Source: Isosphaera pallida ATCC 43644 (lineage in GTDB: Bacteria; Planctomycetota; Planctomycetia; Isosphaerales; Isosphaeraceae). From it: 64,000 bases of DNA. The DNA lies in contig NC_014962.1 of assembly GCF_000186345.1 (NCBI RefSeq), positions 4,740,450 to 4,804,449 of the forward strand, given 5' to 3'. Positions within the stretch are counted from its first letter, which is position 1, and every line of letters starts with the position of its first letter. This document shows positions 858 through 38,602 of the stretch, piece by piece. A program made the position numbers and the translations under genes. The notes beneath the pieces were generated by a model. The model was not told the origin of the DNA, did not search any database, and saw only the letters and a list, made by a program, of their open reading frames with translations.

Positions 858-3800
858 ATGTCGCCGAATTCGCCGTCCGAGTTGTCTTTCGAGTCGAATC
901 GTCCCCGCCGCCGTCGCGCTTGGCAACCTCAGCGACGCCTGGCCGCGCTCTCGCCTTCGGCCGGTGTGGTTCGCCGCTTCCGCTCGCTGCCGACCTTCGA
1001 GACGCTCGAATCCAAGACTCTCCTCACCACGTCGGTCGAGTTCCTGGGGGGGACGCTGCTGATTCAAGGCAATACCGCCAACAACGTCATCGAAGTGTCC
1101 ACGTTGGACAACGGACGGATTGAGGTCATGGTGGACGGCCAGCTGCGGACCGCGCCTGGCGGCGGCCCGCTGGCTTCTGAAGTGACCGAGTTGCGGGTGC
1201 TGGGCCGCGCAGGCCGCGACCTGATCGACGTGTCGCGCGTCACCGGCCTGTCCTCCAACGCCGTGGTCGTGCTAGATGGCGGCCAAGACGCCGACACCAT
1301 CCTCGGCGGCCTCGCGGCTGAGCGGATTCTCGGCGGCTCGGGCGACGATGTGATTCTCGGCGGCGACGGTGACGACACCATCCTCGGCGGCTCCGGCGAC
1401 GACTCGATCGAGGGTGGCGACGGTCACGATTACATCGAAGGTGGTACGGGCAACGACACCATCCTCGGCGGCGCAGGCAACGACACCATCTACGGCGGCG
1501 ACGACTCCGACACCATCCTCGGCGGCTCCGGCGACGACTTCCTCGACGGTGGTGACGCCAACGATTCAATCGACGGCGATGCGGGCGACGATACGATCGT
1601 GGCCATCGCGGGTAACAACACCATTGAGGGTGGTCTCGGCAACGACGTCGTCCTCGGCGGCGACGACGATGACTTCATCACCGATATCGACGGCGGCGTC
1701 TTCACCGGCGGCCGGGGCAACGATACCATCCTCGGCGGCTCCGGCGGCAACTTCATCGACGGCGGCTCGGGCGACGATTCCTTGGTGGGCGGCGCAGGCA
1801 ACGACACCATCCTCGGCGGCGCAGGCAACGACACCATCCTCGGCGGCGCAGGCAACGACTCGCTGTTCGGCGGTGACGGTGAGGATCTTATCGAGGGTGG
1901 CGACGGTCACGATAACATCGAAGGTGGTGCCGGCAACGACACCGTCTTCGGCGACGCCGGCGACGACACCATCTTCGGCGACGCCGGCGACGACCTGATT
2001 TACGGCGGCGCGGGCACCGACTCGATCGAGGGTGGCTCCGGCAACGATGTGCTGGATGCTGGTCAACCCGGCACGGTCCGTGAGAACACCAACGACACCC
2101 TGATCGGCGGCGACGGCAACGACACCTTGTTCGGCTCGGACGGGGCCAACTCGCTCCTCGGTGGCGACGGCAACGACCTGATCTTCGGCTTCGGAGGCGA
2201 CGACCTGGTCGATGGCGGTCGGGGTAACGACTCAATCGAGGGCGGCGATGGAGCCGACTTCCTGCGTGGCGGCGAGGGCGATGACACGGTCTTTGGCGGC
2301 GCAGGCAACGACACCATCTTCGGCGGGTTGGGCAACGACTCGCTTGAGGGTGGCGCGGGCAACGACGTGCTGGACGCCGTGGACGAGTTTTCGGACGGCA
2401 CGCCGGATGAAATGAACACCTTGATCGGCGGCGATGGGAACGACTCGTTGTTCGGCTCGCTGGGCGACGACCTGATGGAAGGTGGCGCGGGCGAGGATTT
2501 CCTGGACGCCTACGAAGGTGACGACACCCTCATCGGCGGCGAGGGCAACGACACCCTGCTGGGTGGCGCGGGCAACGACTCAATCGAGGGCGGCTCGGGC
2601 GACGATTCGATCGACGGCGGGTCGGGCGATGATCAAATCGACGATCTGGAAGGGAACAATACCCTGCTGGGCGGCGAGGGCAACGACACCATCTTCGGCG
2701 GGTTGGGCAACGACCTGATTGACGGCGGCTCCGGCGACGACTTCCTCGATGGTGTCGCGGGCAACAACACGATTTTCGGCGGCGACGGCAACGACCTGAT
2801 CTTTGGCGGCGTCGGCAATGATTCGATCGACGGCGGCGCGGGCGACGATACGATCGACGGCGGCGCGGGCGACGATTCGATCGAGGGCGGCTCCGGCGAC
2901 GACTCGATCGACGGCGGGTCGGGCGATGATCAAATCGACGATCTGGAAGGGAACAATACCCTGCTGGGCGGCGAGGGCAACGACACCATCTTCGGCGGGT
3001 TGGGCAACGACCTGATTGACGGCGGCTCCGGCGACGACTTCCTCGATGGTGTCGCGGGCAACAACACGATTTTCGGCGGCGACGGCAACGACCTGATCTT
3101 TGGCGGCGTCGGCAATGATTCGATCGACGGCGGCGCGGGCGACGATACGATCGACGGCGGCGCGGGTGACGACGTGCTGTTTGGTGGTCCCGGCAACGAC
3201 TCGATCCTAGGTGGCGAGGGCGATGACCTGATCCATACGTCTTCGCCCGACGATCCTGGCTCACCTGAGGAGGTCAACACTGCGCGTGGCGGTGAAGGCA
3301 ACGATACCATCGTGGGCAGTGTAGGCCGCGACTTCCTCGACGGCGGGTTGGGTCAGGATTCGCTCATTGGTGGCGACGGTGACGACACCATCTTCGCTGG
3401 TGACGGGGACGACCTGGTCGATGGCGGTCGGGGCAACGACCTCCTTGAGGGTGGGTTAGGCAACGACTTCCTGCGTGGCGGCGAGGGCGATGACACGGTC
3501 TTGGGCAACTTCGGCGACGACACGCTCTTTGGCGGGTTGGGCAACGACTCGATCGAGGGCGGTCCCGGCAACGACTTGATCCGAGCGGTGGATGAGTTCT
3601 CGGATGGACCAGCGTTAGCGAATGAGTCGAACACAATTTTCGGCGGCGACGGCGACGATACGATCATCGGCTCGAATGGTCCCGACCTGATCGATGGCGG
3701 GTTGGGTCAGGATTCGCTCATTGGTGGCGACGGTGACGACACCATCTTCGCTGGTGACGGGGACGACCTGGTCGATGGCGGTCGGGGCAACGACCTCCTT

Positions 3801-6503: not shown

Positions 6504-6556
6504 CCGTTTGAAAACGACCTCGTTTCAAGTTTCAAGTGTAAGTGGGTTGGGTTGAA

Positions 6557-6617
6557 TGACGGAGGATGACCAGGACGGCGCGACCTTCCTGGTGTCATCC
6601 TCCGTTCACCCATTTTT
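6557..6617 (+). terminator. Probable intrinsic terminator of the RTX gene
   Basis: Fifty bases after the stop codon, ACGGAGGATGA...CCAGGA (6559-6575) pairs with TCCTGG...TCATCCTCCGT (6587-6605), with a small bulge. The hairpin is followed by a TTTTT run at 6613-6617. Confidence 0.7.
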
Positions 6618-6984
6618 AGGGGTACGCGACATGTCATTCCACCGTGCCGATTGACGGCGTGGGTTCCCCGACTCCGGTGAGGTCGGGGATCACAGAATCG
6701 GTTGAGACCAAGTCGTGTCCCTCCTCACGGACCTTGGTTGAAATGACTCGGGTGATGGTCGGCACCACCCGGTTGGAAGCGGATCACGTCCCAACCATTG
6801 GTTTTCGGTTGGGACGACCTGGATGAGGGTTGGTTGGCCCAGACGAACCGAAACGACGAGACACGGTTGCCAGCCGCCGCGACCAACCGTGTTGTGAAAT
6901 GGAATCGGTGGGATCGAATGGGGAAATGGTGCTGGACGCTCAATTGCTGAACGTCCAGCACGAGCCTGGACGTTCGCGTTAGCG
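6618..6984. other. Convergent intergenic region with a perfect hairpin
   Basis: No supported gene. GTGCTGGACG (6929-6938) pairs perfectly with CGTCCAGCAC (6952-6961) across a 13-base loop, just beyond the 3' end of the minus-strand gene that ends at 6985. It may terminate that gene, although its T-tract is weak. The motif CTGGACGTT recurs immediately after it. Confidence 0.4.
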
Positions 6985-7653
6985 TCAAGGCATGATCCAT
7001 CCGCCGGTCCAGAGCGTTCTAGGGTCGTTGGGAACGCGGTCGAACCGGGCGCGGCGATGGCCGGCGCGATCGAGTTGCAACATCTCGACGGCGTAAACCA
7101 CGATCCGCACCGCGGCGAAGTGGGCGCGACCGGGCTGTACCTCCTCGCGAGTGAGACGATCGCCCCGCTCCAACACCCAGGCGGGCAGGTTGGGGTCGGG
7201 CGTGTCGGATTCCACTGGCGTGCCGGGAGGATGACCGCCCAAGTAGCCCCGCAAACTCAGGGGGGACGACTCGTTCCAGAGCGCCTCGGCCACCGCGTCG
7301 GCGCGATGGATCGTCGCGCGTCCGGCCAACCGAATCTGGAGACGTTCCCGGCGATCGTACCCCAACCACTCGACCGCCGGATCGGCCTCGATCTGGGCGA
7401 TCTTGGGACTGCGGGCATCGGTGTGGATCGTCAAGGCGGCCGCGTCCCGCTCGACCCGGCGCAGGATCACGGTTCGCAATCCGAAGGGGTCGCCTCCCGG
7501 AACGCGCGAGGTGGCGAAGACTCCCTCGCGCCAGGGGGCGTCGGGCTGATTGACCGACCGCTCTAGGCGGTCCCATACCATCTGCCACACCACAGCTAAC
7601 TCGCCCGCGATCGGTCTTGTCGTCGGTCTGGTCGAGTCGTGGGGGTGAGTCAT
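6985..7653 (-). CDS. Pyridoxamine 5'-phosphate oxidase-like FMN-binding protein
   Basis: About 222 residues. The fold signature of the PNPOx split-barrel family is visible: a strand and loop LRTVILRRVE, then HTDARSPKIAQIEADP, then WLGYDRRERLQIRLAGRATIH. In this family these segments bind FMN phosphate and form the barrel. The C-terminal half matches the Alr4036-type branch, with a WNESSPLSLRGYLG segment. The ATG at 7653 is preferred: the frame runs on to a TTG at 7770, but that would overlap the upstream gene. The substrate is unknown; the family includes pyridoxamine oxidases, heme-degrading proteins and F420- or FMN-dependent reductases. It follows the metallopeptidase gene by 91 bases on the same strand. 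Confidence 0.8.
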   Translation of the reverse strand: MTHPHDSTRPTTRPIAGELAVVWQMVWDRLERSVNQPDAPWREGVFATSRVPGGDPFGLRTVILRRVERDAAALTIHTDARSPKIAQIEADPAVEWLGYDRRERLQIRLAGRATIHRADAVAEALWNESSPLSLRGYLGGHPPGTPVESDTPDPNLPAWVLERGDRLTREEVQPGRAHFAAVRIVVYAVEMLQLDRAGHRRARFDRVPNDPRTLWTGGWIMP

Positions 7654-7744
7654 GGGATGTTCAAGCTCGCCGGCACAAGGAGGATCGGGGTTAGGCGGAA
7701 GGGGGGGGAATAAGAAACACGCCTTCGCGCAATGGGGTGGGGGG

Positions 7745-9217
7745 TCAACGACCGCGTTGTTCGCGTTCAAGTTCCACCCGTTTGGTTTGCAGCCAGGTCA
7801 ACCAGTCGCGTTCAAGTTGGTCAATCTCCTTGCCGAACCATTCGCGGCAGCGTTCCGGGTCGGTCATGTCGGTGGAGCCAGTGTTGCGGAAATGGGCCAA
7901 CGCCTTGGCGAATCCCGGCTTCATGGCGGGATCGTCCAGCAGCCAATCGACCACCAGCTTGGCTTGGGGATAGTTGGGGATGCCGATGGGTTTGCCGTTG
8001 AGCAAGGTCGCCAGCGGAACCCGGCGGTTGCGGTCGTTGAGCATTTGATCGACCCGGCGGCGGATGTCCTCGCGGGTGAACTCGAGTTGATACCGCACCG
8101 CCAGACCTTCCATCAGCCACTCGCCCTGGTTAGCGATCCCCAGACACTGATGCAATAGCGCATGGTTAGTTTCATGAACGTAAGTGGCGCGAACCCGATC
8201 GGGCGGCGTATCTACTGAGGCGGTGGCGACCCCTAGCGCCGAGAATCCCTGAGCCTGGGGCGGATCGATGATCCCTAGATATTTGCCGGCGAACCGCGGC
8301 CAGAACGCCCGGTATTCCTCGGGGCTACGGAAGATGAGCAACGGCACGGGGCGACTCGGATCGGGCAGGCCGGGAAAGTCCCGTTTGACCGCTCGGCGCA
8401 TCGCTTCCAGGGCATCCAGCACCTTGGGACCATCCACGGCCGCCACGTCGGTCAGCACCACGAACGGCGAGCCGGCCCGCTGGTGGCGATGAATCCGATT
8501 GAGGTTTTCCGGGCCGAAGGCCCAACCGGCCAATTCCTCCAGGTCGAGATAGGCCGCGCCGGGACGATCGCCCCGGATCAACTCGATGTGGTCGAGCTCG
8601 ATCTCGCCGGGGGTGCGGAACCAGAACCCCAGCAATTCAACCTGTTCCCACTCGGGAGCCAGGCCGCCGCCGTCGCGGAAGTCGTTCAGCTTTAACTCGA
8701 CCTGTTGCCAGCCGGGACGGTCGAGCGTGAGTTTACGCCACCACCAAGCGCGTCGTCCTCCCTCGTAGAACCGGACCTCCAGCACCACCGGCTCTTGGTC
8801 GGCGGAGCGGGGCCGCACCCAAAACCGTAGCAGGCCACAATCGGCCAACGCGGGACGCTCCTTGACTTGGTCAGCCTCGACGAGCCGTCGGGCCGCGACC
8901 GTGCCCGGCCGCGCTACGATCCGTAACGCCCGACCCGCCACCGCCGTTCGCGCTTGGTCGCGGGTCTCGGGCGCGACCTGCTCCAGCGACTCGACCTCGA
9001 CCGGCTCCAAGGCCAACTGAATCGACCCAGCGGCGGTCCAGAATCGCCTGAGTCCGCCCTCGACCCGAACATCGAAGTCCTCAAGGAACTCGACGCGCCG
9101 CTGCTTTGCGGGCGGTTCCTGAGCGCGAGAGGTCGAAAGCGTCCCCATCGCGTGGATCAGTACCCATCCGACCAGGATCATTGAAAGCGGTCGCGTGTGG
9201 CTTCGACGCAATCGCAT
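7745..9217 (-). CDS. Secreted HExxH metallopeptidase-like protein
   Basis: About 490 residues. The ATG at 9217 has GGAGA about 11 bases upstream and begins a signal peptide (MRLRRSHTRPLSMILVGWVL, cleavage likely near SRAQE). Residues about 35-230 look like a beta-sandwich binding domain (WQQVELKLNDF, LDHIELIRGDRPG). The C-terminal part has H348-E-T-N-H352 and then E370 in WLMEGLAV, which is the HExxH...E ligand pattern of gluzincin (peptidase MA-like or DUF1570-like) metallopeptidases. It is probably active outside the cytoplasm; the substrate is unknown. It is divergent from the secreted transglutaminase-like gene at 9471, and the two share a 253-base promoter region. Confidence 0.75.
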   Translation of the reverse strand: MRLRRSHTRPLSMILVGWVLIHAMGTLSTSRAQEPPAKQRRVEFLEDFDVRVEGGLRRFWTAAGSIQLALEPVEVESLEQVAPETRDQARTAVAGRALRIVARPGTVAARRLVEADQVKERPALADCGLLRFWVRPRSADQEPVVLEVRFYEGGRRAWWWRKLTLDRPGWQQVELKLNDFRDGGGLAPEWEQVELLGFWFRTPGEIELDHIELIRGDRPGAAYLDLEELAGWAFGPENLNRIHRHQRAGSPFVVLTDVAAVDGPKVLDALEAMRRAVKRDFPGLPDPSRPVPLLIFRSPEEYRAFWPRFAGKYLGIIDPPQAQGFSALGVATASVDTPPDRVRATYVHETNHALLHQCLGIANQGEWLMEGLAVRYQLEFTREDIRRRVDQMLNDRNRRVPLATLLNGKPIGIPNYPQAKLVVDWLLDDPAMKPGFAKALAHFRNTGSTDMTDPERCREWFGKEIDQLERDWLTWLQTKRVELEREQRGR

Positions 9218-9470
9218 TGGTATGACGTTCTCCGTATTCGGTAGGACGAAACCCGGTTGGAAACCGATCAAGGCTTTCATAATGGCGTTCAAAGTCTAAT
9301 CGGGTCTAGAGGGCGGTGTGGTCGCCGCGCTTGATTCAACCATCGCGCTGCGGCATGATCGACAGTCTTAAACCAGACCACCCGCAGATGGATTCGGTCG
9401 TCTTGTTTGCCCGGAGGGAATTGGGGCGTCTCCCAACGAACGAAGCGAAAAGGGAAGGAAAATCCACGCC

Positions 9471-11594
9471 ATGACGACCAAGATGACGATGACCAAGACG
9501 GCAACACCAGGCAACCGCGCAGGACGGCGGGGATGGAATAGCGTTCTCATCGGTCTCTGGGCGATTCCAGCGATTCTGGCGGTTACTTCTCCGCTCTGCT
9601 GGGGACAACTCGGCGACGTGACCTTGCGCAGCGATCACCCGGTCTATCCTGGCGAAGGGGCGTTTCAGACCGCCGAAGACTGCGTGAGGTTCGCGGTCGA
9701 GTCGGCCCGTGCTCGCAACGACCAGGAAAAAGCGCTCGCGGTCTTCGACTGGCTGCTGACACATCAATGGCATCTCGCCTCACCTCAAGAGTTCCGCGTC
9801 CCCGGCAAGGTTCCCGGTTCGGGGTCAGATGATGATCTGATCGTCTACGACGCGGCGCGGGGACGTTTCAGCTACGGCTACGGGCTTTGCGGCACGGTCC
9901 ACGCTTGGAACGAGCCGTATTGGCGGGTCCTAGGATTCGACGTGAGGCGCAGAGCCTTTCCCGGCCACGTCAACTCCGAGGTGTTCCACGACGGAGCCTG
10001 GCGAATGTACGACACCGACATGGCGGGCGTCGTTTTCAAACGGGATGGCACCGTCGCCGGTTACGCTGACATCGTGGCGGATCTCGATCTTTTGACCCTC
10101 GAAGGACCGCCAAGGCCGCGCTACCCCTTCGCCTGGCCAAGCGACTTCAAGACAATGCGCGACGGCTGGCGCGAGGTGGCCCGGCAAGGGGAGTCCTCCT
10201 GGTACGCCATGCACCACGGGGGTTACGAGGCCGCGCCCGGGATCGTCTCGCTGCGCCGGGGCGAGTCGATGCAACGTCTGTTCGATCGCGACGCCTTTGG
10301 TGGTCCGAACCGTCGGCGGTTCTGGCATGTTCAAGCGGGGGGACCGTCACGCAACTGGACCTTCGCCAACGCCGCCTCGGGTCGTCCCGAGCACCGGGGC
10401 GCGACCTCCAACGCCCGCAACGAGGCCACCTACGCCAACGTCGTCTTCGACCTTCGGCCCGACCCGACCGACCCCACTTGGCTGACCCAACCCCAGGTGG
10501 CGGCCTCAGGAGTGGCCGCCTTTCCCGATGGCTGGATCGCCCGCGGCGGCGGAACGGCTGTCTTGACGCTGGATCATACCTCTCCCTACGTCATCGCCGG
10601 CGACCCAGTGGACGACGCCGACCCAATCCGTGGCCGGGCCACCGACGGCCTGGTGGTCTCCGGAGTCGTGCAACCCGATCCAGCCCACCCCAACGGAGCC
10701 GCGGCCACGGTCCATCTGGAGGTTTCGCCCGACGGCGGCCAAACCTGGACCGAGTCGCATCGGCTGAAGGGACCCTTCCGGCTGGATCTGACCGAGGCGG
10801 TCAAAGGCCGCGACCAGTGGCGGGTGCGTCTGAGTTGGTCAGGCGCGACCCGGATTGAGTCGCTGCGTTGCGTGACCACCTGTCAATCTTCGCAGGCGAT
10901 GCCGCCCCGTCTGACTCCTGGAGGCTGCCGCGTCCTCTTCCGCAGCCGCCCCCGCGCCGTGGTGTCCGTTCGTCCCTTGCTGGCCGACGAGAAGGAGACC
11001 ACCGAGCTCTTCGAGGTGGCCTCCCAACGCTCGGCCAACCTGCAATTCGTGGGACGAACCGCCAAGAACCGTATCGCCTACAAGGTGAATGGTCCCCGCC
11101 CGGCCCAAGTGGTCTTCCGCGTGCCCGCCAGAGCCGAGCGACGTCTGGTCGGTCTCTCGGCCGCGGCGCGGTTCGGAGTACGCTCGCCCACCCCCAAGGG
11201 AGCCAAGTTCGGCCTGGAGGTCTCGACCGACCAGGGAGCCAGCTGGTCCCCCCTGGCCCTCGTCGAGCCGCCGGAAACCAACGCATTCTCAAGCGGATGG
11301 GTGGCGGGTCGAGTTTCTTTGGAGGAGTCCCGGCCCGCCCAAGCCTGGGTCAAGGTGACGCTCGACGGCGGCGGCTACCCAACGAGTTTGCTCGCCTTCG
11401 AGGCTTACGGCTTGGTTGAAACCCCGCCGCCGGGACCAGCCCGGATCGTCCACGAGTGGCGCGAGAAGGATCAAGCACGCCACCACGTCGTCGAGGTGCC
11501 CGCCGGCTCCGAAGTCTTCGAATACGAGGTGCCCACCGGCCAGGTCGAACCCAGTGACTTGCACGACCTGGCAGTGCGGATCGAGGCGCTGTGA
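9471..11594 (+). CDS. Secreted transglutaminase-like (papain-fold) protein
   Basis: About 707 residues. GGGAAGGA lies about 10 bases before the ATG. A hydrophobic segment at about 22-43 (VLIGLWAIPAILAVTSPLCWG) is a signal peptide. The N-terminal domain has C140 in GLCGTVHAWNE, H166 in GHVNSEVFHDGAWRMYDTD and D181, which fits the Cys-His-Asp triad of the transglutaminase-like superfamily. The rest (about 300-707) is a series of beta-rich segments with WTESHRL- and ASWSPLALVE-type motifs, plausibly sialidase-like or Ig-like binding modules. The family includes peptidases, amidases and crosslinking enzymes, so the reaction cannot be named. Pairing with a divergent secreted peptidase suggests a shared extracellular role (inference). 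Confidence 0.7.
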   Translation: MTTKMTMTKTATPGNRAGRRGWNSVLIGLWAIPAILAVTSPLCWGQLGDVTLRSDHPVYPGEGAFQTAEDCVRFAVESARARNDQEKALAVFDWLLTHQWHLASPQEFRVPGKVPGSGSDDDLIVYDAARGRFSYGYGLCGTVHAWNEPYWRVLGFDVRRRAFPGHVNSEVFHDGAWRMYDTDMAGVVFKRDGTVAGYADIVADLDLLTLEGPPRPRYPFAWPSDFKTMRDGWREVARQGESSWYAMHHGGYEAAPGIVSLRRGESMQRLFDRDAFGGPNRRRFWHVQAGGPSRNWTFANAASGRPEHRGATSNARNEATYANVVFDLRPDPTDPTWLTQPQVAASGVAAFPDGWIARGGGTAVLTLDHTSPYVIAGDPVDDADPIRGRATDGLVVSGVVQPDPAHPNGAAATVHLEVSPDGGQTWTESHRLKGPFRLDLTEAVKGRDQWRVRLSWSGATRIESLRCVTTCQSSQAMPPRLTPGGCRVLFRSRPRAVVSVRPLLADEKETTELFEVASQRSANLQFVGRTAKNRIAYKVNGPRPAQVVFRVPARAERRLVGLSAAARFGVRSPTPKGAKFGLEVSTDQGASWSPLALVEPPETNAFSSGWVAGRVSLEESRPAQAWVKVTLDGGGYPTSLLAFEAYGLVETPPPGPARIVHEWREKDQARHHVVEVPAGSEVFEYEVPTGQVEPSDLHDLAVRIEAL

Positions 11595-29349: not shown

Positions 29350-30543
29350 TCACGCGGAGGTTGTTTTCTGGCTCCCAATGCCCGGCGAAGCCGAGAGGGT
29401 CTTAAGCGCCAGGGCTTTGCACAGCGCTTCGACGAAGAAGTAATCGCCGAAGATGACCGACTCATCGACGCCGAGCTTTTTATGGAAATGATAGACGCCG
29501 CGTTTGAGGATTCCCTCCCAGCCGGGGGTCTGGTCGGCCAGGAAGGAGGGCTGACAAAGGGCGCGGAGGATCGCCAGGGCGGCGGCGCGGTAGCGTCGGG
29601 CCGCCTCGGGGTCAGCGGGGTCGGCGTGATCGGCCACGAGGTCGGCCAGCTGGAGCAGGCCGGAGGCGGCGATCGCGCCGGCGGAGCTGTCGGGGATGCG
29701 GTCAGGTCCCTCGGGCACGTCGAAGTCCCAGGGGGGCACAAACGAGTCGTCCAGACGTTCGAGGAAATGGTCGGCGTTGCGGCGGGCGATGTTGAGGTCG
29801 TCGGGGTCGTGGGTGTAGGTGAAGACGGTGCCAAAGCCGTAGAGCGACCAGGCTAGGCCGCGGGTCCAGTCGGAGTCGCCCCGCAGCCCCTGGTGGGTGG
29901 TTTGTTTGAGGAATTCGCCAGTGTCGAGGTTGAAGATGCCCTCGTGCGCGGTGCCGCCGTCGGGACGCACCAAGTAGGTGGCGGTGGTTCGGCAGTGAGC
30001 TTTGGCCAATTCGAAGAGGTCCGGGTCGCCAGTCTCGCGGGCGGCCCGGAAAATGATCGGCACATTCATCATGATGTCGATGAAGAGACTCTCGGGCGCG
30101 ACGAATGAGCGTAGGTAGCGGCCCTTGGGCATGAACCGCAGCGCCAGAGTCTTGCCAGCGGTGATGAGCACCTGATTGAGCGCGGGGTCGTGGGTCAGTT
30201 CGTACCAGGGCAGATAGGTAGAAAGGAAGATGAACCCCAGATCATGCACATCGCGGTCGTGCTGTTTGGATTCGAGGCGTTTGGAGAGGAGTTCGGCCTT
30301 TTCGCGCATCCAGGGGTCGCCGGAGTAGCGATGAAGCTGCCACATGATGCCGGGGAAGAACCCTTTGCACCAGTCGGTCCACTGCTCGCCGTCGTGCTTC
30401 CAACGTCCTACGCGGGTGTACATCGGATAAAAGTCGGGGTCCGCCTCGTGGGTCGTGCGGACCTGCGAGGCGGCGAACTCCAGGGCGTGCTGGAACAGTT
30501 GGCGAACCGCGTCCAGGGTTAGGTCGAGGGGGGGCTGGGCCAT
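29350..30543 (-). CDS. GH88-type unsaturated glucuronyl hydrolase
   Basis: About 397 residues, an (alpha/alpha)6 barrel. GAGGAG lies 8 bases ahead of the ATG. Family GH88 features: WTDWCKGFFPGIMWQL, then HDLGFIF with D101, SLFIDIMMN with D156 (positions of the two catalytic Asp residues of the family), SDWTRGLAWSLYGF, DSSAGAIAASGLLQL and GDYFFVEAL. These enzymes remove the 4,5-unsaturated uronic acid left by polysaccharide lyases. No signal peptide is visible, so it probably acts on imported oligosaccharides in the cytoplasm. It sits 48 bases downstream of maf on the same strand; no lyase gene is adjacent. Confidence 0.9.
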   Translation of the reverse strand: MAQPPLDLTLDAVRQLFQHALEFAASQVRTTHEADPDFYPMYTRVGRWKHDGEQWTDWCKGFFPGIMWQLHRYSGDPWMREKAELLSKRLESKQHDRDVHDLGFIFLSTYLPWYELTHDPALNQVLITAGKTLALRFMPKGRYLRSFVAPESLFIDIMMNVPIIFRAARETGDPDLFELAKAHCRTTATYLVRPDGGTAHEGIFNLDTGEFLKQTTHQGLRGDSDWTRGLAWSLYGFGTVFTYTHDPDDLNIARRNADHFLERLDDSFVPPWDFDVPEGPDRIPDSSAGAIAASGLLQLADLVADHADPADPEAARRYRAAALAILRALCQPSFLADQTPGWEGILKRGVYHFHKKLGVDESVIFGDYFFVEALCKALALKTLSASPGIGSQKTTSA

Positions 30544-30591
30544 GAGGGCGGACTCCTCGGGGGGGATGAACGGACGCAGGCTGCGTCGGTG

Positions 30592-31194
30592 TCAGGGGAG
30601 GGTCAGGCCGCAGAGTCGCAGAACATCCACGAGCGCGATCAAAGGCAGACCGATGATGGCGGTGAAGTCGTCGGTTTCGATCCGCTCGAACAGGGCGATG
30701 CCGCGGGACTCGATTTTATAGGCCCCTGCGCAGTCCCAGGAGGCGTCGGCGCGGACAACGCGGGCGATTGCCTCGGGATCAAGCGGTCTCATGGTCATAA
30801 GAGTGACGTTGGTGTGACGGTGGCGGGCGTCGCGGTGGCGAACAGTCAGCGCAGTGACGAGTTCGTGGGTGGTGCCGGCCAACCGGGCCAGTTGATCGCA
30901 AGCCGCCTCGAACGAGCCGGGTTTGCCCAGAATGGCCCCATCGAACGCTACGAGCTGATCGGAGCCGACGACGATTGCCTCGGGATGGTCGCGGGCGACC
31001 GCCTCGGCTTTGGCGTCGGCCAGGAACTCGGCCAGATCCCGGGGCGACCGCGAGGGGGCGGTGTGCTTCAGGGCCTCCTCGTCCACCGGGGGGACGATTG
31101 CCCGGAAGGGAATCCCCAATCGCTCCAGAAGCGCCCGGCGGTGGGGCGAACCACTCGCCAGGATCAACTCCGGGACCGACGAGGCGCAGGACAT
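30592..31194 (-). CDS. maf: Maf-family nucleoside triphosphate pyrophosphatase
   Basis: About 200 residues. Family motifs: LILASGSPHRRALLERLG at the N-terminus, AKAEAVA, VVGSDQLVAFDGAILGKP with the catalytic Asp region, and WDCAGAYKIESRG near the C-terminus. Maf proteins hydrolyse dTTP, UTP or modified pyrimidine triphosphates to the monophosphate and pyrophosphate, acting as a house-cleaning enzyme; they were first linked to septum formation. It is the first gene of a likely two-gene unit with the GH88 hydrolase. Confidence 0.93.
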   Translation of the reverse strand: MSCASSVPELILASGSPHRRALLERLGIPFRAIVPPVDEEALKHTAPSRSPRDLAEFLADAKAEAVARDHPEAIVVGSDQLVAFDGAILGKPGSFEAACDQLARLAGTTHELVTALTVRHRDARHRHTNVTLMTMRPLDPEAIARVVRADASWDCAGAYKIESRGIALFERIETDDFTAIIGLPLIALVDVLRLCGLTLP

Positions 31195-31377
31195 GGTTCG
31201 AGGCTCCCGAACCGGTTGGCAAGGTGAGCGGGCCGGATCGCGGCGATTCGAGTCGGGCAGGGTCGATCGTATGCGGCGGTTTGGTCACTCACAAGCCCCT
31301 CGCGGCAGCGACGCGGCACCGTTAGGATGACCCCTCTACCATTCCCTTCCCTGCCGCCACCTGGATCCGCCCGCCCG

Positions 31378-32856
31378 ATGACTTCGATCGACCTCGTGAT
31401 TGTCGCCGTCTATGTGGTCGGTTGTACGGTCTTGGGAGCCTGGCTGGGCCGCTCGACCGCCACCCAGGGACTCCAGGGCTATTTCTTGGGGGCGCGGGCC
31501 GCGCCAACCTGGGCGATTATGTTGTCAATCGTGGCGACCGAGACCAGCACAGTCACGTTTTTGAGCCTCCCCGGAGCCGCTTACAAAGAGGGCGGCGACC
31601 TCCGCTACCTCCAACTGACCATCGGCTACATCTTGGGCCGGTTCCTGGTGGCCGGGGTGCTGCTGCCAGCCTACTTCCGGGGCGAGATCTATTCGGCCTA
31701 CGAGGTGTTGGGACAACGATTCGGCGGGTCGGTCAAAACGGTCGCCTCGCTCATGTTCTTGACCATGCGCTCGCTGGGCGATGGACTCAGATTGGCTCTC
31801 ACATCACAGGTGATTCATCTGTTGACTGGTCTGGACATGACCGCCTCAATCCTGGTCATGGGTGGGGCGACAATCCTCTACACCTATCTGGGTGGCATGA
31901 CGGCGGTGATCTGGACCGACGTGATCCAGTTCGTGGTGTACATATTGGGAGGAGGTTTGGCTCTGGGGATTTTGACCCAGGCGGTCGGCGGGTTCGAGGC
32001 GATCATCTTGGCCGAGCCGGAGAAGTTTCGGGTGTTCCACCTCAATTTCGCTTGGAGCGACCCGTTCAACCTCTGGGCCGGGATCGGTGGCGGCATGGTT
32101 CTCAGCATGGCGACCCACGGCACCGATCAATTGATGGTCCAACGTTACCTAGCCGCACGCGGTCCCCGCCAAGCAGCCGCGGCTTTGATCACCAGCGGCT
32201 TCGTGGTGGCTGGTCAGTTCGCTTTGTTCCTGGTCATCGGCGTGGCGCTGGCGGCCTACTTCGCCTCCGATCCCGCGCTGGCGGTCACCGCCCCGGCCAA
32301 AGCCGACGCCGCCTTCGCTACCTTTCTAACTTCGCCGGCGATGCCCACGGGTGTTCGAGGCGTGATCGTCGCGGCCCTCATCGCCGCGGCGATGAGCACC
32401 TTGTCCAGTTCGTTGACCGCCTCTTCGGCCTCGACAGTCTCCGACTTGATCCTGCCCTGCTTGCATCCCGAGGCGCGTCGGTCAAAGACGGTGTTGCGAT
32501 TGTCGATGGGGTTGACGGTGGTGTGGGGCCTAGTCCAGGTGGGTATTGGCTGGGCCTGCGTGGACATTCGCTCGCAAGCGATTGATAATGTGCTGGCGAT
32601 CGCCTCGCTTGGGGCCGGCTTGATTCTGGGGCTGTTCCTCTTGGGCACCTTCGTGGTTCCCGCCGGTCCCCGCGCCGCCCTCATCGGTCTGTTGACCGGT
32701 GCGGCGGTGATCTTCGGGGCCAAGTTCGGTCTGGATTTGGCCTTCCCCTGGTTCGCTCCCCTGGGCGCGGGCACCGTCTTTCTCGTCGGCGGCCTGCTGG
32801 CCGGTCCTGGCGGTTCCCCTCCCGGCTCGAGTTCAAGCCCTGGCGGAACGGCTTGA
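31378..32856 (+). CDS. Sodium:solute symporter (SSS family)
   Basis: About 492 residues with roughly 13 hydrophobic segments. The start at 31378 puts helix 1 (SIDLVIVAVYVVGCTVLGAWLG) at the N-terminus as usual; an ATG at 31327 would add 17 Pro-rich residues. Recognisable SSS features include AAPTWAIMLSIVATETSTVTFLSLPG, the GGMTAVIWTDVIQFVVYILG block, HGTDQLMVQRYLAARGPRQA and MSTLSSSLTASSASTVSDL with the Ser/Thr sodium-site region. It imports a small solute with Na+. The serine hydrolase-NamZ fusion gene starts 77 bases downstream, so a cell-wall sugar or peptide is a reasonable guess for the substrate (inference only). Confidence 0.9.
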   Translation: MTSIDLVIVAVYVVGCTVLGAWLGRSTATQGLQGYFLGARAAPTWAIMLSIVATETSTVTFLSLPGAAYKEGGDLRYLQLTIGYILGRFLVAGVLLPAYFRGEIYSAYEVLGQRFGGSVKTVASLMFLTMRSLGDGLRLALTSQVIHLLTGLDMTASILVMGGATILYTYLGGMTAVIWTDVIQFVVYILGGGLALGILTQAVGGFEAIILAEPEKFRVFHLNFAWSDPFNLWAGIGGGMVLSMATHGTDQLMVQRYLAARGPRQAAAALITSGFVVAGQFALFLVIGVALAAYFASDPALAVTAPAKADAAFATFLTSPAMPTGVRGVIVAALIAAAMSTLSSSLTASSASTVSDLILPCLHPEARRSKTVLRLSMGLTVVWGLVQVGIGWACVDIRSQAIDNVLAIASLGAGLILGLFLLGTFVVPAGPRAALIGLLTGAAVIFGAKFGLDLAFPWFAPLGAGTVFLVGGLLAGPGGSPPGSSSSPGGTA

Positions 32857-32933
32857 CCTTGACCCAACCTCTGACCGTCTCGTGATCGTCCTCCAACACC
32901 CCCCCTCGTTTCATCCGGTTGCGAGTCCCGCTC

Positions 32934-35303
32934 ATGCTTATGGTGGCGCGTTGTTGCACGATCCGGTTGACGCGGCTGGTTCTCCTCCTCGTTCTGGGGT
33001 TCGCGGGTCCAGAACCGGGGCGAATGGTCGCAGCGGCTCCCCAGGCTCCTGAAGCCACTCCCGAGCAAGTCGGCCTCGATCCGGCCAAGCTCGACGCCAT
33101 TGAAACAGCGCTCAGGGAGGCGATCGCCCGCGAGGCGATCCCCGGCGCGGTAGTGGGGGTGGGACGCTTCGGCAAACTCGCTTATGTCAAAGCGTTGGGG
33201 GATCGGGCGGTCCAACCCGACCGCGAGCCGATGACCCGCGACACGATCTTCGACCTGGCCAGCCTTACCAAGCCGATCGCCACGGCCTCGTCCATCCTGA
33301 GCCTGATCCACGAGGGCAAGCTCAAAACAACCGATCGGGTGGCGGATCACTTGCCGGAGTTCGCCCCCCACGGCAAGGAGGTCATCACGGTCGATCAGTT
33401 GTTGCGCCATCGCGCCGGTTTGATCGCCGACAACCCGTTGGAAGACTATGAACACGGTCCCGAGGCGGCGTGGAAGGCCATTTGCGACCTGACGCCGATC
33501 CATCCACCGGGCGAACGGTTCGTTTACACCGATGTCGGGTTCATCGTGCTGGGCAAACTCGTGGAGAAGCTAGACGGACGCCCGCTGGACCAAGCGGCCG
33601 CGGCGCGGGTGTTCGGTCCTTTGGGAATGAGCGACGCTCGCTTCAACCCGGACCAAACGCTCCAAGGACGGATCGCGCCCACCGAGGAGGAGCGCGGGGT
33701 GGGTGTGGTGCGAGGGGTCGTGCATGACCCCCGCGCCCGTTTGATGGGTGGGGTGGCCGGTCACGCTGGTCTGTTCGGCACGGTGGACGACCTGGCGGCC
33801 TACGCCTCGGCTCTGACCGGCCTGCTCCGGGGCGAGGCGCAGGCCGGACGCGGCTGGCTGACTCCGGAGGAGGCCCGAACCATGATCGACCCGGCCGACA
33901 CGCCGCCTAACCAGCGTCGCGGTCTAGGCTGGGATATTTCGACCCCCTACAGTTCGCCGCGGGGCGACCTCTTTGGACCCGCTAGCTTCGGCCACACCGG
34001 GTTCACCGGCACCAGCGTCTGGATCGACCCGGAATCGGACCTGTTCGTGATTCTGCTGACGAGCCGTTTGCATCCCCGAAACCGAGGCAACATCAACCCG
34101 ATTCGGTCCCAAGTGGCGACCCTGGCCGCCTCGGCCGTGATCAGCGACCCCCGGCCCGATCCCGGCCCGGTCGCTTGTGGCATCGACCGTCTGCTCCTCC
34201 AAGGCGGCGGTCCCCTGGTGGGCAAGCGGGTCGGTCTGGTCACCAACCACACCGGACGCACCCGCGATGGCCGCGCCACCATCGACGCCCTCCGTCACCT
34301 GCCTGGCGTGGACCTTGTGGCCCTCTTCAGCCCGGAACACGGCATCCGCGGCGAAGTGGACCGCGAAGTGGACGACGGCCGCGACGAACGCACCGGCTTG
34401 CCGATCTTCAGCCTCTACGGTAAGACCCGCAAACCGACCCCGGAGAGCCTCAAAGGAGTCGAAATTCTGGTCTACGACCTTCAAGATATCGGAACACGGT
34501 TTTATACTTACATCAGCACACTCAAACTGGTGATGAAGGCGGCCGCCGAGGCGGGGCTTCCCCTGGTGGTGCTGGATCGTCCCAACCCAATCGGCGGCGT
34601 CGAGGTGGCCGGTCCGGTGCGTGACCCGCGGTTCGACTCGTTCATCGCCTGTCACGCCCTGCCGGTACGTCACGGCATGACTGTGGGCGAACTCGCCCGG
34701 ATGTTCAACGAGGAGGATCAAATTGGCACCGACTTGACCGTGATCCCCTGTCAAGGCTGGCGGCGCAGCATGCTCTGGGACCAAACCGGTCTGGAGTGGG
34801 TCAACCCCTCGCCCAACATGCGAAGCCTCACCGAGGCATTGCTGTATCCTGGAGTGGGGCTTCTGGAAGCGACCAACCTGGCGACCGGTCGCGGCACCGA
34901 CACCCCGTTCGAGCGGATCGGCGCGCCCTGGATCGAACCGCGGCGGCTGGCCCGAGCGCTCAACGACCTGAAGTTGCCCGGCGTGGTCTTCGTACCGATC
35001 CGATTCACCCCCTCGGAGCGGCAATACGCCGGTGAAACCTGTGGCGGGGTGTTCCTCCAAATCACAAATCGGGATCAATTCGAACCGATTTCGCTGGCAA
35101 TCGGCTTGGCGATCGTTTTAAATCGGCTCTATCCTCGGCAGTGGGATTCCACCAAGCTCCAGGGCATGGTCGCCCATCAGGCGACCCTGGAGGCGATTTC
35201 GCAGGGACGAGATCTCGCCCAAATCCCTCGTCTCTGGGATGATGACCTGGACGAATTTCAGGCGCGCCGCGCCCGGTTCCTCATTAGTGGGTACGTCGAA
35301 TGA
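32934..35303 (+). CDS. Fusion of a beta-lactamase-fold serine hydrolase and a NamZ-type (DUF1343) muramidase
   Basis: About 789 residues. The ATG at 32934 begins a signal peptide (TRLVLLLVLGFAG); the frame extends to TTG 32919. Domain 1 (about 40-400) is a class C beta-lactamase/PBP-like serine hydrolase with S110-L-T-K113, Y198-T-D in FVYTDVGFIVLG and H354-T-G in GHTGFTGTSVW. Domain 2 (about 415-789) matches DUF1343/NamZ: VGLVTNHTGRTRDG, LFSPEHGIRGEVD, VYDLQDIGTRFYTYI, VLDRPNPIGG and ETCGGVFLQITNRDQF. NamZ enzymes release terminal N-acetylmuramic acid from glycan chains. The combination suggests a periplasmic enzyme acting on peptidoglycan stem peptides and glycan ends together. It probably shares an operon with the upstream symporter. 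Confidence 0.9.
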   Translation: MLMVARCCTIRLTRLVLLLVLGFAGPEPGRMVAAAPQAPEATPEQVGLDPAKLDAIETALREAIAREAIPGAVVGVGRFGKLAYVKALGDRAVQPDREPMTRDTIFDLASLTKPIATASSILSLIHEGKLKTTDRVADHLPEFAPHGKEVITVDQLLRHRAGLIADNPLEDYEHGPEAAWKAICDLTPIHPPGERFVYTDVGFIVLGKLVEKLDGRPLDQAAAARVFGPLGMSDARFNPDQTLQGRIAPTEEERGVGVVRGVVHDPRARLMGGVAGHAGLFGTVDDLAAYASALTGLLRGEAQAGRGWLTPEEARTMIDPADTPPNQRRGLGWDISTPYSSPRGDLFGPASFGHTGFTGTSVWIDPESDLFVILLTSRLHPRNRGNINPIRSQVATLAASAVISDPRPDPGPVACGIDRLLLQGGGPLVGKRVGLVTNHTGRTRDGRATIDALRHLPGVDLVALFSPEHGIRGEVDREVDDGRDERTGLPIFSLYGKTRKPTPESLKGVEILVYDLQDIGTRFYTYISTLKLVMKAAAEAGLPLVVLDRPNPIGGVEVAGPVRDPRFDSFIACHALPVRHGMTVGELARMFNEEDQIGTDLTVIPCQGWRRSMLWDQTGLEWVNPSPNMRSLTEALLYPGVGLLEATNLATGRGTDTPFERIGAPWIEPRRLARALNDLKLPGVVFVPIRFTPSERQYAGETCGGVFLQITNRDQFEPISLAIGLAIVLNRLYPRQWDSTKLQGMVAHQATLEAISQGRDLAQIPRLWDDDLDEFQARRARFLISGYVE

Positions 35304-35680
35304 ACGAGGCCCGCATCACCGCGACCCAATCGACTCACCCCAATCTGGCGAGATCGACCCATCCACGTGGACCTGTTGTGCAAACCATCGCGCTTCCCTT
35401 TCTCAGTCGCTCCCGCCCAACCGGACCAACCCACCCTTAACCCGGTCGCCGCCGCCCATGATGTGAAGGTGATGGAACGTCCTCCCCAGGCTCCAAGGAT
35501 GGGGGGTCAATGTCGTCGAACATCCCGGCTGGTTGTTCATTGTCATGGGGTCCGTGAGAATGAAAACCCAATCGTTCCACCGGCGCTCCCACGAGATGAC
35601 GCGACTTGGCGGTGACCATAAACCACACCGTCCGCGAATCCAGCCTTCTCGGGAGTCCTCGCTTTGAGTTGGCCAACGTG
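35304..35680. other. 377-base region upstream of the hybrid histidine kinase
   Basis: No separate gene is supported. The kinase frame continues upstream from 35681 to GTG 35612 and TTG 35606, so part of this stretch may be coding if one of those is used. No hairpin or strong promoter is visible. Confidence 0.4.
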
Positions 35681-38602
35681 ATGAATCGATCGACTTTCCA
35701 ACACCGGGCCGACTCCACGTTGGGATTCTGGAATCCCGGACTTCGGGCCGTTGTGTCCTCCTCCGACACCGAAGGCAGCGCCGCGCCACCCCCCACGTCG
35801 CCCTGGACGCCCTCCCGGCTGATGTTGGGCGCGATTGTCGCGGCCTTAGTCATTCAGATCGGCTTCAAGGCGCTGTTGAGCCAAACCAGCGTTCTTCAAG
35901 TGGCCTGGGTGGCTCGTTTGGTCGAGTCGGGATTCGATACCGTTCTGGCCACGCTGTTGAGTTTGGCGGTGGTCTGGCCCCTCGTGATCCGCCCGCTCAA
36001 ACGGGCGCTTGAGGTCGAGCGGGTCAAGGTCAACCAGATTTTGGAACGCTCGGCCGAGGCGATTGTTTCGCTGGACTCGGCGGGGCGGATCGTGTCAATC
36101 AACCCCTCGGCTGCCCGGATGTTCGGCTACAGCGCCTCGGAGGTGGTCGGGGAATCGTTCCTCAAGCTGTTCACCTTCAGTGGACAAGCGGCTCAGGACA
36201 TCAAGTCGTCACTCAAGGCCGCCACCTTCCAGCAAGTTCCACGCGGCCTCAAGAAGGACCAGACCACCTTCCCGATTGAATTGTCGATCACCGAGGTGAT
36301 GGTGGAAGGCCGTCGCCTGGTGACGCTGTTCGTGCGGGACCTGACCGAGGTTCAAAACTGGAAGCGCAGGCAGGAGGAAGCGGTCAACCAGTTGCGGTCG
36401 GTGCTGGACGCGGCCACCCGGTTCTCGATCGTGGCGACCGACGCGCACGGCGTTGTCGAGGTTTTCAACACCGGGGCCGAGCGGATGCTTGGTTACCAGG
36501 CGTCCGAGGTGATCGGGCGAATGAGGCTGGATCAACTCCACCTGCCCCAGGAGCTTAGGGAGGAGGCTCAGCGTCTGGAGACCAAGTTGGGCCAGCCGAT
36601 TGACCCGATCGAAGTGTTGTTCGAACCGGTTAGGCGTCTGGGCTTTCAAGAACGCACCTGGACCTATGTTCGCAAGGATGGCGGTACGTTACTGGTCAAT
36701 CTGGTGACCACGCCGCGGCGCGACTCGGCCGGGCGGATTGTTGGCTACGTGGGCATCGCCGACGACGTGACCGAACAGGTCCGCTATCAGGAGGAGATCC
36801 GCAGGGCGCGGGATCGCGCTGACGCGGCCAACCGGGCCAAGAGCGAATTCTTGGCCTCGATGAGCCACGAGATCCGCACCCCGATGACCTCGATTTTGGG
36901 GCACGCCGACATCCTCAACCTGCCCGACCTGACGCCTCAGCGTCTGGCCGAGGCCCGCGGGGCGATCCAAGCGGCGGGTCGTCACCTGCTGCGGATCATC
37001 AACGACATCCTCGATCTAGCTAAGATCGAGGCGGGCAAGCTCCCGATGGAAATCCTGCCATGCGACCCGTGGACCCTGGCCCGCGAGGTGGTCGCCGGGT
37101 TGCGGATCAACGCCACCCGCCGCGAATTGGCCTTGACCCTGGAAGCAGCTGGTCCTCTGCCTAAACAGATCCAGACCGATCCCAACCGCTTGCGTCAAGT
37201 GTTGTACAACCTAGTGGGCAACGCCATCAAATTTACTGAGAAAGGGGGGGTGCGGCTGATCGTGTCGTTTGACCCGTCGGCTTGTCGTTTGTCCTTCGAC
37301 GTCATCGACACCGGCGTGGGTATGACGCCCGAACAGGTCGGTAAGCTGTTCACGCCGTTCTATCAAGCTGAGCGGACCCACAACGCCGGCGGCACCGGGC
37401 TGGGTCTGGTCATCTCCAAACGTCTGGCCGAGCGCCTAGGCGGCACCATCAAGGTCCAAAGCCAACGCGGACGCGGCAGCGTCTTCTCGGTGCTCATTCC
37501 CGTGGATCCTGCCGCCGCGCGCGAGTTGGTCCCCAAAGCGGAACTAGAACGGATCGCCCGTGAACCCATCGACGCCGCCAATGAATCCACTCTGGCGTTG
37601 TTCACCACCAAACTCATCGGTCGTGTGCTGTTGGCCGAAGACACCCCCGAGATCCGCCAGGTCATCCTGTTCCACCTCCGCCGCCTGGGTCTGACCGTGG
37701 AAGCCGTCGAAAACGGCGAACTCGCCGTGGAAAAGGCGCTGGCCGGCCCTCCCTTCGACCTGATCCTGATGGATCTTCAGATGCCGATCACCGACGGCTA
37801 CGAAGCCACCGCGCGGCTGCGTGCCAGCGGCTTCGAGGGTCCCATTGTCGCCTTGACCGCCCACACCATGACCGGCGAGCGCGAACGCTGCCTCCGCGCC
37901 GGGTTCACCGACCATCTGGGTAAACCGATCGACCTCAACGAGTTCCTCACCCTGATGAATCGGTACCTCAAACCGGCCCCCAGACTCGTCGATCAAAGCG
38001 ATTCGCCGACCCAGCTCGAACACCCTACCGCCAAGGCGCTGGCTGCTCCAAACCAGGACGCCCCCGCTTCCGCTGCCGCTCCCGTTGCCGCCGCTCCCGT
38101 TGCCGCCGCCAACGGCGCGGTCCTTGCCGCATCTCGGCCGGAGGCCGCGGACGGCCGCGCGACTTCCTCCTCCCCCCCTCCCTCGGACGACGCCACGGCG
38201 AAGACATCCGCGACCGCTGTGGAACGCGGCCCAAACCATTCCGATTCCGGGATGATCCCGCTTCTAACGGTCGAACTCAAGCCTGGCGAGTCGCGCGACG
38301 ACATTGGCTTGGTTCACCTGCTGGCCCGCTACATTCAGGGTCTGCCTGCCCAAGCCACGCGCCTCCGCGACTTCTGGAGTCAAGGCGATTGGCAGAAGGT
38401 CGAGCAACTGGCCCACCGGGTTTTGGGATCCTCGGGGATGTACGGTCTCTCCGACCTCAATCGGATCGCCGCGCGGATCGAGCAGGCCGCCCGCCGCCAT
38501 GATGACATCGTGGCGGACGAACTCGACGCCCTCGACCGGGAAATCGAACGCCTCGGACAGCTTGGGCCACCCGTGAAACGTGGCTCCAGCGTTTCTGAAT
38601 AG
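35681..38602 (+). CDS. Hybrid sensor histidine kinase (PAS-PAS-HisKA-HATPase-REC-HPt)
   Basis: About 973 residues from ATG 35681. Two hydrophobic segments near the N-terminus (LMLGAIVAALVIQIGF and VLATLLSLAVVWPLVI) anchor it in the membrane. Two PAS domains follow (AIVSLDSAGRIVSINPSA, then VATDAHGVVEVFNTGA). HisKA has H396 in FLASMSHEIRTP. The ATPase has NLVGNAIKFT, DTGVGM and GTGLGLVISKRLAERLGG. The receiver has acidic residues in LLAEDTPEIRQ, D698 in LILMDLQMP and K in HLGKPID. An Ala/Pro-rich linker leads to an HPt domain with H912 in AHRVLGSSGMYGL. All phosphorelay stations are in one chain, so an output partner must be encoded elsewhere. The signal is unknown. Confidence 0.92.
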   Translation: MNRSTFQHRADSTLGFWNPGLRAVVSSSDTEGSAAPPPTSPWTPSRLMLGAIVAALVIQIGFKALLSQTSVLQVAWVARLVESGFDTVLATLLSLAVVWPLVIRPLKRALEVERVKVNQILERSAEAIVSLDSAGRIVSINPSAARMFGYSASEVVGESFLKLFTFSGQAAQDIKSSLKAATFQQVPRGLKKDQTTFPIELSITEVMVEGRRLVTLFVRDLTEVQNWKRRQEEAVNQLRSVLDAATRFSIVATDAHGVVEVFNTGAERMLGYQASEVIGRMRLDQLHLPQELREEAQRLETKLGQPIDPIEVLFEPVRRLGFQERTWTYVRKDGGTLLVNLVTTPRRDSAGRIVGYVGIADDVTEQVRYQEEIRRARDRADAANRAKSEFLASMSHEIRTPMTSILGHADILNLPDLTPQRLAEARGAIQAAGRHLLRIINDILDLAKIEAGKLPMEILPCDPWTLAREVVAGLRINATRRELALTLEAAGPLPKQIQTDPNRLRQVLYNLVGNAIKFTEKGGVRLIVSFDPSACRLSFDVIDTGVGMTPEQVGKLFTPFYQAERTHNAGGTGLGLVISKRLAERLGGTIKVQSQRGRGSVFSVLIPVDPAAARELVPKAELERIAREPIDAANESTLALFTTKLIGRVLLAEDTPEIRQVILFHLRRLGLTVEAVENGELAVEKALAGPPFDLILMDLQMPITDGYEATARLRASGFEGPIVALTAHTMTGERERCLRAGFTDHLGKPIDLNEFLTLMNRYLKPAPRLVDQSDSPTQLEHPTAKALAAPNQDAPASAAAPVAAAPVAAANGAVLAASRPEAADGRATSSSPPPSDDATAKTSATAVERGPNHSDSGMIPLLTVELKPGESRDDIGLVHLLARYIQGLPAQATRLRDFWSQGDWQKVEQLAHRVLGSSGMYGLSDLNRIAARIEQAARRHDDIVADELDALDREIERLGQLGPPVKRGSSVSE

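Follow-up and report, generated by a model that had tools for sequence, protein, structure and literature searches.

NamZ enzymes need peptide-free N-acetylmuramic acid (MurNAc). The Bacillus subtilis protein YbbC is the exo-muramidase that later received this name. In B. subtilis, its gene closes the run murQRP-amiE-nagZ-ybbC; the product of amiE, which lies between murP and nagZ-ybbC, is described as a MurNAc-L-alanine amidase (PMC5061867). Here, a 64,000-nucleotide stretch of the genome of Isosphaera pallida ATCC 43644 (contig NC_014962.1, positions 4,740,450 to 4,804,449; the window) was analyzed, in which a sodium:solute symporter (SSS) gene is followed by a gene fusing an S12/beta-lactamase-fold domain to NamZ. 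Together, these genes probably act as the outer arm of a route for salvaging MurNAc. The B. subtilis system is similar in placing an S12-family amidase outside the cell before sugar uptake, in having a NamZ gene and in using MurQ inside the cell (PMC5061867). It differs in that AmiE and NamZ are separate proteins, NagZ is present and uptake is by the phosphotransferase system through MurP, whereas the route proposed for the window has an SSS and a kinase.

In Tannerella forsythia, the operon order is given as ampG-ybbC-murT-murK-murQ (PMC5388701, PMC5790795). It shares with the proposed route a ybbC-labelled gene, a MurNAc transporter described as a sodium symporter, a MurNAc kinase and MurQ; unlike that route it includes AmpG, and the order as published lists no amidase fusion. 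One paper's introduction calls MurT a sodium symporter, whereas its discussion speaks of a major facilitator; the window SSS is likened to MurT by description. RmNag3 of Rhodothermus marinus is described as joining an exo-glycosidase to an S12 domain and bearing a signal peptide; it resembles the window fusion in this, with the differences that its partner is a GH3 enzyme removing N-acetylglucosamine (GlcNAc) and that its domain order is the reverse of that in the window fusion (PMC6987092). The same architecture as in the window was tabulated in a 2008 survey of serine proteases as DDPept-DUF1343 (YP_439122.1), in a single table row labelled cell wall biosynthesis, with DUF1343 defined as a domain of unknown function (PMC2605481). 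The fusion architecture, both enzymes and the SSS-type MurNAc transporter have precedents. In the open-licence literature, nothing was found on what this fusion does or on MurNAc salvage in planctomycetes. What appears to be new is the functional interpretation of two domains joined in a single chain, the spread of the fusion and its linkage to an SSS subfamily and to murQ across phyla; its occurrence in a genome with three kinds of genes for wall synthesis left unrecognized appears to be new as well.

Results

The symporter gene and the fusion gene

The assembled genome comprised 5,529,304 bases in two contigs, one of them 5,472,964 bases; the published I. pallida IS1B genome is given as 5.529 Mb with a chromosome of 5.473 Mb (PMC5352709). 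Window coordinates of the two genes and their domains were as follows, with fusion residues counted from the TTG start.

31378..32856, plus strand: SSS gene, proposed MurNAc importer; ATG to stop, 492 aa; PF00474, 1.9e-36
32857..32933: gap of 77 bases from the SSS stop to the fusion ATG in the sequence; 62 bases if the TTG is the start
32919 (TTG) or 32934 (ATG)..35303, plus strand: fusion gene, amidase-like domain and NamZ exo-muramidase, probably exported; from domains and AlphaFold model
32934..33053, plus strand: probable signal peptide region, a hydrophobic stretch whose extent is our estimate
33105..34088, plus strand: S12/beta-lactamase-fold domain PF00144, proposed MurNAc-L-Ala amidase; residues 63-390, 6.9e-66
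34230..34829, plus strand: NamZ_N domain; residues 438-637, 4.3e-86
34335..34340, plus strand: E473-H474 of a PEHG motif, candidate NamZ catalytic site; invariant in 66 fusions
34839..35285, plus strand: NamZ_C domain; residues 641-789, 5.5e-45

Both genes lie on the same strand. A further in-frame ATG was present upstream of the SSS start, at 31327, and the SSS protein scored above the TIGR00813 cut-off (207.1 bits vs 184). PF00144, NamZ_N and NamZ_C were near full-length matches in the fusion and far above the Pfam cut-offs (NamZ_N, 287.9 bits vs 26.9; NamZ_C, 154.3 bits vs 25). The N-terminus of the fusion contained a strongly hydrophobic stretch (mean Kyte-Doolittle 2.84 over 11 residues), from which the protein is probably exported. 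The original prediction, of an S12 domain with SxxK, Y and HTG motifs fused to NamZ in an exported chain and an SSS gene 77 bases upstream, thus held for both genes and their places, and export is probable.

Fusions for alignment were taken from a scan of named loci, of which the best 80 by similarity to the window fusion were kept. S12 and NamZ were both present in all 80, as follows from the selection, and were in a single frame in 79 (L120 was the exception). The alignment comprised the window fusion and 65 of these 79; left out were incomplete fusions, those that started late and as many as four named loci. An AlphaFold model built on this 66-fusion alignment had a mean predicted local distance difference test score of 92.3 and a predicted template modelling score of 0.59. 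The latter value led us to make no claim on the relative placement of the two domains, including active sites that face each other.

Residues 374-753 of the model were superposed on the B. fragilis DUF1343 protein 4k05 (Z 48.6, rmsd 2.2, 373 aligned), and the C-terminal half was also matched to the B. fragilis DUF1343 structure 4jja (Z 39.1). With both Pfam domains and the modelled DUF1343 fold present, this half is a NamZ exo-muramidase by sequence and model, and release of MurNAc is predicted.

The first domain as a putative amidase

The S12 domain carried three motifs, with conservation given for the 66 aligned fusions.

33261..33272, plus strand: SLTK (S115, K118); S and K in 66/66
33525..33533, plus strand: YTD (Y203, D205); Y and D in 66/66, shared with E. 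coli YfeW
33993..34001, plus strand: HTG (H359-G361); H and G in 66/66, T in 59/66

The second motif is Y-x-D, not Y-x-N. H164 and D270 were likewise invariant in all 66 fusions, and E. coli YfeW agreed with the window fusion at S115, K118, H164, Y203, D205, D270 and H359-T-G361. The S12 domain was compared by sequence with YfeW, and AmiE was likened to it through Pfam family and gene position. B. subtilis AmiE (YbbE) is listed in PF00144 (PMC10653849), and the window domain combines a PF00144 match with SxxK, Y and HTG, as would be expected of an AmiE-type enzyme. In E. coli, the gene order is murQ, murP, then yfeW. Because AmiE belongs to PF00144 and is encoded near ybbC, yfeW follows murQ-murP and the YfeW motif residues are shared, the S12 domain is best read, by analogy, as a putative MurNAc-L-alanine amidase of AmiE/YfeW type. 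The peptide trimming first proposed for this domain would then be replaced by removal of the whole stem peptide, and the MurNAc release proposed with it would remain with the NamZ domain.

The domain could instead be a D,D-carboxypeptidase (PBP4B/YfeW or PBP4* type) trimming D-Ala from stem peptides, with NamZ acting on other fragments, which we regard as rather improbable. Its best NCBIfam match was indeed penicillin-binding protein PBP4B/YfeW (PRK03642, 6.6e-37), at 127.4 bits vs an equivalog cut-off of 385, and a sequence match in the Protein Data Bank was to the D-alanyl-D-alanine carboxypeptidase 1sde (1.1e-12). NamZ would still require peptide-free MurNAc, however, so that an amidase step ahead of it makes sense. 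The PBP4B gene itself sits in the E. coli MurNAc operon, and MurNAc-L-Ala amidase activity is reported for AmiE, a further member of this Pfam family (PMC5061867, PMC10653849).

If the domain were an esterase, acyltransferase or beta-lactamase, it might, for example, take O-acetyl groups off MurNAc or confer protection from an antibiotic. This would agree with the structural matches of the N-terminal half of the model, which were to acyltransferases, esterases (EstG and EstB among them) and AmpC enzymes. The closest neighbours of the S12 domain were acyltransferases and esterases (6kjh, Z 40.8; EstG 7u1c, Z 40.2), and many weak NCBIfam matches were to class C beta-lactamases. The beta-lactamase matches among those shown (25 of 38 families) were, however, far below cut-off; S12 and NamZ share one frame in nearly all of the best 80 named loci, though similarity to the fusion was the basis on which the loci were collected; and a MurNAc-route gene was found within 9 kb in 34 of the 80. 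Such an activity is given the lowest probability among the readings of this domain and is very unlikely.

The symporter as a candidate MurNAc importer

The window SSS was searched against 392 genomes of the phylum, drawn from a larger group. In most rows, at most four SSS candidates were scored per genome, so that a subfamily member may be missed. A subfamily was delimited at 298 bits or more, the next score being 228, and was present in 30/392 genomes, nine of them from one genus. NamZ was found in 25 of these 30 genomes vs 79/392 overall (Fisher 8e-15, relatedness ignored). In the I. pallida genome (G000), the SSS gene does not lie next to murK and murQ, as murT does in T. forsythia; across the subfamily, murQ lay within 2 kb of the SSS gene in 24/30 genomes. 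The remaining six were G000, G016, G377, G249, G274 and G109, in which the fusion (G000, G274, G109) or anmK (G377) was near the SSS; in G016 and G249, no murQ, anmK, nagZ or fusion was found beside the SSS within the stretch read. At least one of these four genes was thus near the SSS in 28/30 genomes. Among the five subfamily genomes in which NamZ was missing (G016, G383, G155, G205, G125), murQ was beside the SSS in four. One of the five, G205 (L224), had a lone S12 domain directly after the SSS, together with AnmK, MurK and MurQ matches.

The reading of the window SSS as a MurNAc importer gains support from the co-occurrence of its subfamily with NamZ and its adjacency to murQ in relatives. 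The wall-salvage role originally predicted is supported as well. Import of another substrate of the same route (anhydroMurNAc, GlcNAc, a disaccharide or a stem-peptide product) is unlikely. It would account for an SSS and an AnmK match lying 16 bases apart in L226 (G377, of the same family as I. pallida) and for AnmK matches in L048, L049, L051, L052, L223 and L224; AnmK was not found in the I. pallida genome, however, linkage to murQ was the more frequent arrangement, and the MurNAc transporter described in T. forsythia is a sodium symporter according to one report (PMC5790795).

Site residues were compared with those of the sialic acid symporter SiaT, in which Ser60, Thr63 and Arg135 are reported to hold the substrate carboxylate (PMC5931594). 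The comparison covered 45 cluster or orthologous SSS, chosen by score from the fetched loci, and 20 paralogues.

31540..31542, plus strand: SSS Glu55, aligned with SiaT Thr58; E in 43/45 subfamily members, 0/20 paralogues
31768..31791, plus strand: stretch aligned with transmembrane helix 3 (TM3) of SiaT, holding Arg131 and Arg138; conserved in the subfamily

Arg131 was present in 43/45 vs 3/20 paralogues, Arg138 in 44/45 vs 3/20 and Gln79 in 45/45 vs 4/20. Ser57 and Thr60 align with SiaT Ser60 and Thr63 and also occur in 20/20 and 13/20 paralogues, respectively. Arg131 precedes the position of SiaT Arg135, and Arg138 follows it, by about one turn of the helix. An arginine equivalent to Arg135 was rejected, as Ala or Gly occupies that position in 43/45 members (Arg in 16/20 paralogues), and a shared Gln82 is not claimed, since SiaT Gln82 was aligned to Thr81 of the SSS. 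A carboxylated amino sugar such as MurNAc would fit these residues. In an arbitrarily rooted tree, 43 of the 45 formed a clade (support 0.984), with L116 and L173 outside it; the group joining all 45 included three of the 20 paralogues.

Gene neighbourhoods and spread of the fusion

Among the planctomycete genomes, regions were fetched at 60 places chosen by hand from about 100 listed NamZ matches, including all matches from the class of I. pallida and all with an open frame above 700 aa, and 33 fusions were flagged, the window included. This set and the named loci overlap in part, L063 and L143 being on equally long contigs. The best 80 named loci were from Planctomycetota, Acidobacteriota, Verrucomicrobiota, Gammaproteobacteria, Armatimonadota and Rokubacteria. 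The loci from Acidobacteriota, Verrucomicrobiota and Gammaproteobacteria rule out a planctomycete speciality, and the fusion is not notable for its phylum in the way first suggested.

Within 9 kb of the fusion, in the 32 of the best 80 named loci that are flanked by 8 kb or more on either side, SSS was found in 13, MurQ in 10, MurK in three and NagZ in four; at least one of these was present in 20/32. An SSS match less than 600 bases upstream on the same strand was found in 8/33 planctomycete fusions (window included) and in five of the best 80 named loci (L103, L104, L115, L160, L168). The cleanest case was a five-gene run in a member of the Pyrinomonadaceae (L172), with murK at 1703-2650, murQ at 2662-3501, SSS at 3582-5111, a GH3 NagZ at 5114-6967 and the fusion at 6989-9505; a GH3 NagZ was also present in L076. 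In other planctomycetes, both arms form one cluster, with murK-murQ divergent from SSS-fusion (L047-L049, L051, L052, L068). As a control, 20 planctomycete stretches of 19.7 kb, at places picked by us and with no Acidobacteriota among them, were searched to E 1e-4; SSS, MurQ, MurK, NagZ, NagK, AnmK or NamZ was found in 0/20, with one weak S12-domain match, which makes chance neighbours unlikely.

Variant reading frames were seen at several loci. At L047:4391-6298, MurQ-like and BadF-type kinase domains share one frame of 635 aa; at L170:5795-8821, a GH3-beta-lactamase fusion of 1008 aa lies between murQ and the S12-NamZ fusion; and at L073:10431-14084 and L077:2984-6784, S12-NamZ fusions have an extra N-terminal part holding FG-GAP repeats.

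Inner salvage genes and observations that weigh against the route

In I. pallida, murQ, a BadF-family kinase gene and a second NamZ gene lie in one run at C2:3.98 Mb of the same genome. MurQ scored above the TIGR00274 cut-off (374.7 bits), and the BadF-type kinase matched PF01869 (1.9e-33, 117 bits) and is predicted to phosphorylate MurNAc. Judged from these matches, the genome is equipped with the MurNAc-6-phosphate etherase and BadF-type kinase of MurK-MurQ catabolism. The second NamZ had no strongly hydrophobic N-terminus and no evident signal peptide. Its frame (L033:8130-9815) is longer at the C-terminus by about 150 residues, which match a molybdopterin oxidoreductase domain below threshold.

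Several observations weigh against the proposed route. The genes for MurQ and MurK are outside the window, so that the compact recycling system originally predicted is not complete in this pair. No PF00933 match (GH3, NagZ type) was found in the I. pallida genome at E 1e-3 and no GH20 was found there; a glucosaminidase of either kind was rejected, and the removal of GlcNAc ends is therefore not accounted for. The SSS subfamily was absent from 54/79 NamZ genomes and from 12/33 fusion genomes, and NamZ was missing from five of the 30 subfamily genomes, as listed above. In 12/32 named loci, none of SSS, MurQ, MurK and NagZ was near the fusion. Conservation of the gene pair was mixed. Absence from close relatives, which would count against the original prediction, was observed for strict adjacency in the nearest loci examined: L034, from the family of I. 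pallida, and the four named loci that matched best (L098-L101), of which two are on short contigs. The pairing is present in other families and phyla. The acyltransferase and esterase neighbours of the S12 domain are a further point on this side.

Wall-synthesis genes

In the I. pallida genome, MurA was not recognized (TIGR01072 matched AroA only), nor were MurC-F (PF08245 matched only a FolC-like protein, so named from our reading of the sequence and not by a model) or SEDS (no PF01098 match); the search covered these three, and MurB, MraY, MurG and penicillin-binding proteins were not searched for. In a sample of 118 genomes of the class, the 30 genomes of the same family had one to four matches to Mur ligase domains, with no E-value below 1e-22, and none of these genomes was among the 34/118 genomes with a SEDS match. 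A second family (f2, 29 genomes) had five to seven Mur ligase matches, with a best E of 1.3e-37 or better and a SEDS gene in each genome, and a third (f3) had two to four with no SEDS match. Jeske et al. 2015 reported essential genes in all species analyzed (PMC4432640, PMC5147048). As their searches were more sensitive, missing Mur and SEDS matches at the present sensitivity are no proof of absence. Peptidoglycan, noted in the original prediction as long doubted in the phylum, was demonstrated in 2015 in four planctomycete strains, with wall components reported for Gemmata, Planctopirus, Rhodopirellula and one further strain (PMC4432640, PMC5147048). I. pallida itself is described as having a strongly reduced set of carbohydrate-active enzymes (PMC5352709).

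Other neighbours in the window

GH88-like and Maf genes lie upstream of the SSS gene on the minus strand (29350-31194). A hybrid histidine kinase containing PAS, receiver and Hpt domains is encoded at 35606-38602 on the same strand as the fusion, 302 bases 3' of it. The T. forsythia MurNAc operon is reported to be controlled by a hybrid two-component protein (PMC5388701); no link to the window kinase is shown.

Discussion

A route for MurNAc salvage probably has the SSS and the fusion as its two-gene outer arm. The route builds on observed domains, motifs, linkage, co-occurrence and inner genes, from which we infer the activities, the substrate of the pump, the order of the steps and their location. 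The exported fusion would first strip the stem peptide from MurNAc through its amidase domain, with an acyl-enzyme on Ser115, and its NamZ domain would then cut MurNAc off the stripped sugar at the non-reducing end. The MurT-like SSS would bring MurNAc into the cell by Na+ coupling, where the BadF-family kinase would convert it to MurNAc-6-phosphate and MurQ would convert this to GlcNAc-6-phosphate and D-lactate. The genes for these last two steps are those grouped with the second NamZ elsewhere on the chromosome.

Since MurA, MurC-F and SEDS were not recognized in I. pallida, foreign wall may be food. A bolder reading, which we offer tentatively and consider possible but doubtful, is that the organism has no recognizable peptidoglycan route of its own yet an apparently complete path for MurNAc uptake and breakdown. 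The fusion and the pump would then be a system for eating the murein of other bacteria and not for recycling its own, and the SSS would belong to a new subfamily of carboxylated-amino-sugar transporters (Glu55, Gln79, the TM3 arginine pair) that extends from Planctomycetota to Acidobacteriota.

The analysis provides a testable function for a two-enzyme fusion of several soil and water phyla and for a murQ-linked SSS subfamily. It thereby yields a prediction of the uncultured bacteria that can feed on the walls of neighbouring cells. If the I. pallida genome is truly without wall synthesis, MurNAc salvage would be separable from wall recycling, and this would bear on the disputed walls of the Isosphaeraceae.

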